The position numbers and the translations under genes are program-made. A stretch of 64,000 nt of DNA, taken from Gracilibacillus oryzae (GTDB lineage Bacteria > Bacillota > Bacilli > Bacillales > Amphibacillaceae). The stretch is taken from the NCBI RefSeq assembly GCF_009498735.1, contig NZ_ML762430.1, positions 127,385 to 191,384 on the forward strand. Direction: 5' to 3'. Below the pieces are notes generated by a model. It was given only the letters and a program-made list of their open reading frames with translations, was not told the DNA's origin and made no database searches. Positions 21,104 to 56,762 of this stretch are shown here, one piece after another. The first letter of the stretch is position 1. Each line of letters starts with the position of its first letter.

Positions 21104-21215
21104 AAAAAGAGATAAGAACGTAAATGTTCTTATCTCTGCCCAGACGACCCGACTTTAGAAAATATAGCTCCCTTGTGGTTGATTCCACAAATGTCGTCAG
21201 TTGCTATATCCTGGT
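21104..21215 (-). promoter_or_regulatory. ZTP (pfl) riboswitch with terminator, folD leader
   Basis: Read on the minus strand: ATATAGCAACTGACGACA, TGTGGAATCAACCACAAGGG and AGCTATAT form the first domain (complement of 21161-21208). The second domain is GTCGGGTCGTCTGGGCA (complement of 21137-21153), with the conserved CCTGGGCA-like end. GACGAC and GTCGTC are complementary, giving the pseudoknot expected for this class. Directly after it come GAGATAAGAACATTT/AAATGTTCTTATCTC-like arms and a T6 run (21104-21137), an intrinsic terminator. Binding of ZTP should block the terminator and allow folD expression. Family and mechanism are known; the identification is from motifs. Confidence 0.88.
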
Positions 21216-37118: not shown

Positions 37119-37417
37119 CAAATCACCTCATTAAGTAATAGGTTAGGTAATATATGTTATGAGATAAGACCATGATTAGTGCAGAATAATTAGTTTTTGT
37201 AACAAAAAAGTAAAAAAAGTCCATGGAAAAGCAGGAAAATATAAAGAAATGTAGAAATTAAATATAGATGACAAAATATAGTAGACAATTTTCGCTTTTT
37301 TGGAGGTGTTTTGGCGATAATTCTATGTCTGGTTTTTTAAGGAGAGGCTATGCAGAAGTAGTTCTAGGCATAACAAGATTATTAATTATAACTAGAGAGA
37401 GAATATACAGTGTTCAT

Positions 37418-37423
37418 TATAAT
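37418..37423 (+). promoter_or_regulatory. -10 box for the riboswitch/SinI transcript
   Basis: TATAAT at 37418-37423 would place the transcription start near 37430, directly before the riboswitch aptamer at 37433. No convincing -35 is present. The 260 bases before it (37140-37417) are AT-rich with no supportable gene. Confidence 0.45.
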
Positions 37424-37432
37424 TTCAGACAA

Positions 37433-37533
37433 ATGGCAAACCTATTGTAAAGTAGGGACGCAAAGTTACAGATCCGGTATGCAGACGGATGGCTGAACTG
37501 CCTGGAATACAAACTACATGTATTTTAGGGAGG
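37433..37533 (+). promoter_or_regulatory. c-di-GMP-I (GEMM) riboswitch with translational expression platform
   Basis: The aptamer runs 37433-37504: GGCAAACC, a short stem with a GTAA-type loop, then the class signature GGGACGCAAAG (37455-37465), a P3 stem (GATCCG ... CGGAT) and GGCTGAACTGCC closing P1 (GGCA with TGCC). Immediately after it CCTGGAATACA (37501-37511) can pair along all 11 positions (two G-U) with TGTATTTTAGG (37519-37529), which contains the start of the AGGGAGG ribosome binding site. The first CC of that hairpin also belongs to P1, so the two structures exclude each other. This predicts that bound c-di-GMP frees the ribosome binding site (ON switch). The class is established knowledge; the platform is my inference. 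Confidence 0.85.
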
Positions 37534-37542
37534 AATAAACAA

Positions 37543-37674
37543 ATGGGAGAAGTTTTACAACTGGATTATGAATGGATCTACTTGCTATTGGAAGCAAAAG
37601 AAGCTGGCCTTACAGTAGACGAAGTAAAAGAATTTATAGAAAAAGAAAAATTAAAGGTACAGGAAATCGTCTAG
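37543..37674 (+). CDS. SinI-like anti-repressor
   Basis: This is a protein of 43 residues: LDYEWIYLLLEAKEAGLTVD followed by EVKEFIEKEKLK. This is the Sin-dimerisation helical hairpin: B. subtilis SinI has LDxEWVELMxEAKEA in the same place. SinI disrupts SinR and so releases biofilm matrix genes. No DNA-binding domain is present. ATG 37543 is nine bases after AGGGAGG; a longer frame from 37489 runs back into the riboswitch. No sinR gene is nearby, so the partner must be elsewhere. Family call from motif; partner and role inferred. Confidence 0.8.
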   Translation: MGEVLQLDYEWIYLLLEAKEAGLTVDEVKEFIEKEKLKVQEIV

Positions 37675-37707
37675 CTGTACTTCTTATATATATTAATCGT
37701 TAAAAAT

Positions 37708-37761
37708 CACTCCGTTTCGTTTTGGTCAATCTATTTGATTAGTGCGAATGGAGTGTTTTTA
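37708..37761 (+). terminator. terminator after the SinI-like gene
   Basis: CACTCC (37708-37713) pairs with GGAGTG (37750-37755), extended by TTCG/CGAA, and is followed by TTTTT. Confidence 0.65.
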
Positions 37762-37924
37762 TCTGATCATTGCAGGGTATATCTATAGAAGGCTTGATTG
37801 GAAGTTTTGCCATATAATTGTTATACTGAATAGAAAGCTTACATATTGACAACTAAAATGGCAGAAACTATTATCGAATTTCTATGAAATAATCTTAATC
37901 TTATGAAAGAAAGGATGACTGATT

Positions 37925-40954: not shown

Positions 40955-41223
40955 TAATCAAATGGCAAGATGCAATGACGAGGAAGAGTACTGCACACTT
41001 ATCGTAAGAGAAGAGAACCCGAGGCTGAAAGGTTTTCCCGAAAAAGATGCAGGAAGGTAGCCTTTGAAGCAGCTTTACTGAATACGAAAAAGTAGGTAAA
41101 GCCGGTTGAACCGTTATCTCATCAATGAGTGTATAAGTAGCAGTACTTATAAACAAAGGTGGTACCACGGAAATCCAATCCTTTTCGTCCTTTACAACAG
41201 TAAGGGCGGGAAGGATTTTTTTG
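40955..41223 (+). promoter_or_regulatory. T-box leader of valS
   Basis: The T-box sequence AAAGGTGGTACCACGG is at 41155-41170. It is followed by a terminator whose arms ATCCTT and AAGGAT bracket CGTCC/GGGCG and end in T7 (41177-41223). Upstream, the long stem I region (40975-41080) contains GACGAGGAAGAGTACT-like T-box features. GTA at 41057-41059 (in GGAAGGTAGCC) is a candidate valine specifier, but I could not prove its position in the specifier loop. Uncharged tRNA-Val should pair through the T-box and favour antitermination, raising valS. Confidence 0.88.
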
Positions 41224-56649: not shown

Positions 56650-56762
56650 CGATTCGTTGTTTATGTAGCACCCGTTGCTGCTGCAACCGCGCAGAACAGG
56701 TTATGAAAGCTTTGAATAAGCTTGCCTGTATGGCGAGTCTGAGTATTAGAGGAGGTGCATAT
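56650..56762 (+). promoter_or_regulatory. L21 ribosomal protein leader RNA
   Basis: The leader of about 110 bases contains GTAGCACCCGTTGCTGCTGC, CCGCGCAGAACAGG and AAGCTTTGAATAAGCTT hairpins before rplU. Position and the first stem-loops fit the Firmicutes L21 leader, thought to bind L21 for autoregulation. Recognised by location and general structure, not by a covariance model. Confidence 0.55.

Follow-up and report, generated by a model that had tools for sequence, protein, structure and literature searches.

Does cyclic di-GMP set the level of a SinI-type anti-repressor through the leader of its own messenger RNA? This question is raised by a locus in the 64,000-nucleotide stretch of DNA from a salt-loving relative of Bacillus analysed here (the window; C7:127385-191384 of a 4.63-Mb genome in 53 contigs), in which a c-di-GMP-I aptamer directly precedes a short sinI-like gene. 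The main switch for biofilm formation in B. subtilis is the SinI/SinR pair, and c-di-GMP in that organism is regarded as acting mainly on motility. The features of the locus are as follows.

37422-37428, + strand: 5' strand of P1 (AUUUCAG), paired with 37502-37508 over 7 bp
37425-37505, + strand: c-di-GMP-I (GEMM-I) aptamer, matching RF01051 over its full length (61.1 bits; gathering threshold, 35; E = 1.7e-9)
37441-37456, + strand: P2 hairpin with a GUAA loop (37441-37446 paired with 37451-37456; Rfam alignment)
37455-37465, + strand: aptamer core GGGACGCAAAG (sequence; Rfam alignment)
37469-37495, + strand: P3 hairpin without the CUAA/AuG segment of RF01051 (gaps of 4 and 3 positions in the Rfam alignment)
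37501-37511, + strand: 5' arm of the anti-Shine-Dalgarno (anti-SD) hairpin, CCUGGAAUACA, paired with 37519-37529
37502-37508, + strand: 3' strand of P1 (CUGGAAU), common to P1 and the anti-SD arm
37519-37529, + strand: 3' arm of the anti-SD hairpin, UGUAUUUUAGG (97.3% of 264 cells paired in 24 leaders; z = -4.6)
37527-37533, + strand: Shine-Dalgarno (SD) sequence AGGGAGG, 9 nt ahead of the start codon, its first three bases within the hairpin
37543-37674, + strand: sinI-like gene of 43 aa with its own start codon and SD sequence (PF08671, 41 bits; cut-off, 31.4)
37703-37762, + strand: terminator-like hairpin and T run 3' of sinI (-24.2 kcal/mol; z = -7.0)

The aptamer, the sinI-like gene and SinR

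The covariance-model search with GEMM-I gave a match well above the threshold, and the aptamer at 37425-37505 was the sole match to RF01051 in the genome at E values up to 1. The GEMM aptamer proposed from its core at 37455-37465 was therefore borne out, with the three-helix junction P1-P2-P3 around GGGACGCAAAG present and P1 short. The start of the feature, which had been placed at 37433, did not hold, because the aptamer begins at 37425 and the 5' strand of P1 at 37422. The P2 loop is of the GNRA type (GUAA), and the CUAA/AuG segment of the model's P3, the part that was looked at as a docking receptor, is absent. The guanine, adenine and cytosine that we take to contact c-di-GMP in Vc2 would map to 37435, 37462 and 37501, respectively. 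A TATAAT hexamer at 37418-37423, with no visible -35 element, overlaps the 5' strand of P1. As a promoter, it would leave part of this strand untranscribed; because the printed leaders of the same genus have no TATAAT at that place, it is probably due to chance. Elsewhere in the window lie a T-box leader (40966-41195) before an 883-aa ORF that is valyl-tRNA synthetase-like by eye, a ZMP/ZTP riboswitch (21131-21214, minus strand) and an L21 leader (56675-56750), all of them ordinary.

The 43-aa protein starts 37 nt after the end of the aptamer and scores above the PF08671 cut-off, in agreement with the SinI-type protein predicted right after the aptamer. In a phmmer search it matched the PDB SinI chain 1b0n_B (E = 1.2e-4), and its score for the NCBIfam equivalog NF046031 (Bacillus SinI), 23.2 bits, was below the cut-off of 80. 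Judged by these matches, the product is a SinI-domain protein, which we do not call an equivalog of B. subtilis SinI. Given the stable hairpin and T run downstream of sinI, the gene is probably alone on its transcript. Its upstream neighbours resemble spoVID (34811) and ysxE (35926), both below the NCBIfam cut-offs, and the downstream neighbour encodes a pyridine nucleotide-disulphide oxidoreductase (37925).

A clear SinR-type protein of 109 aa was found in the genome (L002:1480-1806, - strand), together with 14 GGDEF domains. The locus thus has the SinI domain and the SinR partner in common with the B. subtilis SinI-SinR system; it differs in that sinI is unlinked from sinR and its product lacks the RSHTVNPF-type tail. 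Several relatives share with B. subtilis the order YqhG-like gene, sinI, sinR. The TasA/camelysin family (PF12389) gave no match in this genome, and a B. subtilis control was positive in the same search. A second SinI-like gene, of 55 aa (L004:1459-1623; G000:C6:51096), has no aptamer match in its locus and adjoins two genes of the opposite strand whose products are, by eye, a response-regulator-like protein and a GGDEF protein. A third, also of 55 aa (L003:1462-1626; G000:C1:271468), has no aptamer match and lies, by eye, among prophage-looking ORFs.

Competing helices at the sinI ribosome-binding site

The segment 37501-37533 folds to -11.4 kcal/mol, compared with -3.81 kcal/mol (sd, 1.65) for 200 shuffles, in agreement with the predicted pairing of CCUGGAAUACA with UGUAUUUUAGG over 11 positions. 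The hairpin also covers the start of AGGGAGG, as predicted, and does so at A37527-G37529 only. The masking of the SD sequence is thus partial, with three bases paired and GAGGA left unpaired. The anti-SD arm is indeed common to P1, but the sharing is not confined to its first bases, since P1 comprises 7 bp and shares 37502-37508. Owing to this common strand, P1 (37422-37428/37502-37508) and the hairpin (37501-37511/37519-37529) are mutually exclusive. For the window leader free of ligand, the computed energies of the hairpin and P1 states were -25.0 and -17.9 kcal/mol, and the computed pairing probabilities were near 1 and near 0, respectively.

On this predicted structure, we consider it likely that the c-di-GMP-I riboswitch is a translational ON switch, which raises the SinI-type anti-repressor when c-di-GMP is high. 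In the ligand-free state, the aptamer's 3' end (37501-37511) would pair with 37519-37529, and the resulting hairpin would reach into the ribosome-binding site of sinI at its 5' edge. With c-di-GMP bound, the aptamer would hold C37501 and P1, so that the lower half of the hairpin could not form and the ribosome-binding site would be free. The energy gap between the two states could be paid by ligand binding. More SinI would then sequester SinR, encoded elsewhere in the genome, and relieve the SinR-repressed genes, and a rise in c-di-GMP would thereby favour the sessile state. As expected of an ON switch, the ligand-stabilised helix excludes the SD-masking helix in the predicted structure, the masking being partial. 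We infer that the window copy binds c-di-GMP, that it switches in the ON direction and that SinI contacts SinR. The original prediction is right on the parts and very likely right on the wiring.

The computed accessibility of the SD sequence in 25 leaders with this hairpin (type A, see below) rose from a mean of 0.58 to 0.74 when only the sequence after P1 was folded. The same calculation for 35 leaders without this hairpin also gave an increase, from 0.57 to 0.66, and in the type A leaders L049, L067, L085 and L139 the accessibility moved in the opposite way. The SD accessibility from ViennaRNA thus failed to separate the 25 leaders with the hairpin from the 35 without it.

A transcription terminator between the aptamer and sinI was rejected. 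None was found by a consensus scan of 37130-37900, which is a weak test because the same scan missed the interrupted-stem hairpin at 37703-37762, and the 37 nt between the aptamer and the start codon have no T run after the hairpin. The hairpin was also considered as a DNA operator, a reading that was rejected on two grounds: the distance between the arms is not constant, being 9 nt in the window and 3 to 8 nt among the at least 118 loci described below, and a G-U position is retained in one arm in 22 of 24 leaders.

Conservation of the leader with sinI

The same pair of aptamer and gene was found in relatives. With the 43-aa protein as the query, 110 of 159 family genomes gave a match with E no higher than 0.05, in some cases to SinR, and 110 SinI-type loci of the family (L037-L146) were fetched from among the matches listed. 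In 61 of these 110 loci, from 58 genomes, the SinI gene directly follows a GEMM (53 at 55 bits or more, the weak L083 at 21 bits, and 7 more from a second scan). The covariance model was built from 16 aptamers that are themselves among the 61 and that Rfam had found independently; Rfam gave an aptamer in 16 of the 20 best SinI loci of the family. The aptamers end 12-47 nt before the sinI start codon (no start was found for L088).

A SinR-like ORF was seen in the fetched flank of 33 of the 61 GEMM-sinI loci, mostly a few hundred bases after sinI, giving the order riboswitch, sinI, sinR. SinR was present in 57 of the 58 GEMM-sinI genomes versus 50 of the 101 others (Fisher p = 7e-12), which is not independent proof of the wiring, because SinI and SinR tend to co-occur anyway. 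The sole GEMM-sinI genome without SinR, G029, is 73% complete. In the genus of the window (17 genomes including its own), the two further members that gave no SinR match, G026 and G034, are the same two that lack a GEMM-sinI locus in the set. This genus is most likely Gracilibacillus, since the SinI proteins of its loci L038, L049, L050 and L053 are identical to those from records of G. ureilyticus, G. halophilus, G. lacisalsi and G. suaedae (L234, L183, L179 and L216).

The leaders were assigned by eye to two types. Type A, with the P1/anti-SD hairpin as in the window, comprised 25 of 60 leaders; type B comprised the other 35, which lack this hairpin and in most of which a GGGGGA-type site follows the aptamer within a few bases. 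For the 24 type A leaders aligned, which cover eight genera (L125 was left out, and the structure was taken from one sequence), the hairpin cells were paired at the frequency given above, compared with 28-58% for controls with a slid partner, and the arms are kept while the loop varies in length and sequence. Double-sided changes, from A-U to G-C, occurred at two pairs, in two leaders; among 500 shuffles, 29 had at least as many doubly changed pairs, and all 500 had at least as many further pair types. For P1, the core UCAG/CUGA (4 bp) pairs in 23 or 24 of the 24 leaders, whereas the outer three pairs form in 5 to 11 of 24 and are not conserved, and 260 of 500 shuffles reach the score of P1, which indicates no excess. 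The competing helices are conserved together with sinI and often with sinR.

The hairpin was also searched for alone, as the pattern CCTGRAATAC-N3-9-GTATTTTRGGRRG without aptamer core or protein, in 84,980 genomes, one per species, and at least 118 loci were found. A SinI-like ORF follows in 116 of the 118 listed loci, by motif and by profile (SinI profile from 22 proteins; worst E, 1.4e-10; 3 matches in 454 control windows of the same loci). The recurrence of the aptamer-sinI order in 61 of 110 family loci, and of a SinI-like ORF after the hairpin pattern in 116 of 118, indicates that this order is more than chance. The aptamer model matched 106 of the 118 listed loci (71 of 80 and 35 of 38), L160 and L232 being cut by the end of the locus. 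In L219, L227 and L263 the match stops short of the hairpin, L227 reaching only 29.6 bits, probably because of long P3 insertions as in relatives. Such insertions were seen in the sinI aptamers of Rossellomorea and some relatives (L151, L157, L180, L184, L197 and L219).

The 12 listed loci without an aptamer match comprise two that are not sinI (L152, a SAR324 MAG, and L231, a Chloroflexi MAG), one with a degenerate leader (L167, 43.4 bits with the full-leader model) and nine of the B. pumilus group (L156, L162, L189, L191, L204, L205, L220, L245 and L250), from the species pumilus, safensis, stratosphericus, xiamenensis, zhangzhouensis, australimaris and altitudinis. The other genera with the pattern include Gracilibacillus, Sediminibacillus, Virgibacillus, Oceanobacillus, Aquibacillus, Saliterribacillus, Rossellomorea, Metabacillus, Mesobacillus, Peribacillus, Sutcliffiella, Heyndrickxia, Cytobacillus, Neobacillus, Robertmurraya and Weizmannia. 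The full-leader model R2 had matches in 255 of 299 genomes, a figure that is no count of sinI leaders because R2 also matches other GEMMs; among its best 20 loci, a crude pattern showed a SinI-like ORF in 14. One locus with a Bacillaceae-type GEMM-sinI arrangement, L161, is titled Chryseobacterium sp. ISL-80, and this record is probably mislabelled or contaminated.

In the B. pumilus group (9 of the 118 listed loci) and the B. subtilis group, sinI is preceded by the same hairpin although no GEMM can be recognised, which would fit a fixed translational damper of sinI that is deaf to a degenerate or little active aptamer. However, the aptamer is present in 106 of the 118 listed loci, with its P1 strand serving as the hairpin arm, and the conservation of aptamer cores over many genera would be hard to explain if they were unused, so that we regard such a damper as improbable and prefer the ON switch.

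For the ON switch, the ligand and the direction of the response have to be considered. The window aptamer shares its fold, its core sequence and P1 as the switching helix with the GEMM-I riboswitches Vc2, Bc1, Bc2 and Cd1, and differs from them in the 43-aa anti-repressor as the target, the short P1/anti-SD translational platform and the absent P3 segment. A riboswitch of the c-di-GMP-I fold might instead recognise another ligand, as a member of the variant family c-di-GMP-I-GGC (RF03167), which is the best Rfam match of 12 of the 16 aptamer loci in the best 20 SinI loci, these being all the other aptamers there from the genus of the window. The window copy is unlike those 12 in scoring better with RF01051, it has the residues that we take to correspond to the c-di-GMP contacts of Vc2, and the 14 GGDEF domains of the genome likewise speak for c-di-GMP. 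The P3 without the model segment adds some weight to a different ligand, as a change in the P2 loop of Cd1 that breaks the P2-P3 contact is described as abolishing binding (PMC9262584); taken together, such a ligand appears very improbable. Least probable of all is an OFF switch, in which the ligand lowers SinI, or a control of transcript stability or elongation: Vc2, with a related aptamer, is described as a translational OFF switch (PMC9262584), but here the ligand-stabilised P1 would remove the SD-overlapping hairpin, the weak scan of 37130-37900 showed no terminator, and a T run is lacking between the hairpin and the start codon.

Leaders of the B. subtilis and B. pumilus groups and known systems

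A full GEMM in the sinI leaders of B. subtilis or B. pumilus was not supported, since none was significant, with at most 9.3 bits for model R1 (filters off, 7 loci), and Rfam gave nothing relevant in one B. subtilis-group and one B. pumilus-group locus. When the 101-nt leader of the B. pumilus group was used as the query against 44 genomes of that genus, it was found whole in 17 (93-100% identity), and its hairpin part only (33 bp, 82-85%) was found in 22 further genomes. The hairpin stands directly before sinI in 17 of 23 hairpin-only loci looked at, and nothing was found by pattern in the remaining 6. The SinI of L297 is identical over 57 residues to PDB 1b0n_B, which is presumably the SinI of B. 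subtilis. In the B. subtilis-group leaders (L282-L302), the SD sequence of sinI overlaps the conserved hairpin CUGAAAUAC-AUAAACAA-GUAUUUUAG. By eye, the presumed transcript start of L282, GUAUAUCAG, could pair with CUGAAAUAC.

Just before UGAAAUAC of the hairpin arm, the B. subtilis group has AUGGCCGGAYUGGC, and the 3' end of the aptamer is AUGGCUGGAYUGCC. A 16-nt matrix was derived from 70 GEMM leaders, with the register fixed by the hairpin, and was compared with 402,148 background 16-mers. For 15 of 18 B. subtilis-group leaders p was about 1e-5 (3-4 of the 402,148 background 16-mers), these 15 not being independent because the species are closely related; L292, L299 and L293 gave 7e-5, 0.002 and 0.02, respectively, and ten B. 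pumilus-group leaders gave 0.004-0.03. The full-leader model matched L282 over its whole length (28 bits, E = 2e-6) and the 3' part of L283 and L284 (24.5 bits), the hairpin contributing in both cases. The gene order at L149, L174, L239 and L264 is YqhG-like gene, aptamer, sinI, sinR, and that at L282 is YqhG-like gene, remnant, sinI, sinR, which indicates the same locus; the name YqhG for the gene upstream of sinI is one that we assume.

On these sequence comparisons, the simplest reading is that the B. subtilis group has lost the aptamer except for about 14 nt at its 3' end and has kept the hairpin. The B. subtilis-type sinI leaders differ from that of the window in holding only the hairpin and a short aptamer piece, without a recognisable aptamer. 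A sinI c-di-GMP switch that was ancestral to B. subtilis and was dismantled there, in the boldest form with B. subtilis and B. pumilus leaders still switching through a different or new aptamer, appears to us unlikely. If the proposed ON switch is true, many Bacillus relatives would control the amount of the SinR antagonist directly by c-di-GMP, with B. subtilis as the exception that has lost the sensor; this would offer a simple, testable reason for the difference between B. subtilis and its relatives. The finding also directs attention to the sinI ribosome-binding site of B. subtilis itself, on which a hairpin would lie.

The original prediction named no earlier description of the wiring and left room for one: a putative c-di-GMP riboswitch before sinI (BMMGA3_08510), annotated with 'control of biofilm formation', is already listed for Bacillus methanolicus MGA3 (PMC4342826). 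As in the window, the c-di-GMP riboswitch is annotated ahead of sinI; the case is an entry in a riboswitch table from RNA-seq, and the entry gives no platform, direction, conservation or test (PMC4342826). In Paenibacillus, an antisense-acting c-di-GMP-I riboswitch has been proposed for a SinR-like regulator, which ties such a riboswitch to the SinR branch as here; it is described as antisense to an XRE-family gene, whereas the window has a sense leader of sinI (PMC9943018). In B. thuringiensis, sinI is stated to be upregulated at high c-di-GMP, from unpublished array data (PMC7793685). In the open literature, with subscription papers mostly outside its scope, no account of the pair beyond PMC4342826 was found, and no description was found of the conserved platform, the riboswitch-sinI-sinR operon, the B. 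subtilis remnant or the hairpin on the B. subtilis sinI ribosome-binding site. The pair is thus known as an annotation and appears undescribed as a conserved mechanism; its breadth, the common P1/hairpin platform, the riboswitch-sinI-sinR operon and the B. subtilis-group remnant seem to be new.

For the B. pumilus group, a stretch of about 65 nt ahead of the sinI hairpin (GGGCGGAAACATGACGCAAGC...) hardly varies among seven aligned leaders and is, by eye, more conserved than the start of sinI (L162:3030-3182). This stretch was seen in L156, L162, L189, L191, L204, L205, L220, L277, L280 and L281, and Rfam gave no match in that of L162. It may represent a replaced or decayed aptamer. By eye, the GUAUU..GGGC of this group could pair with the 5' arm of the hairpin.
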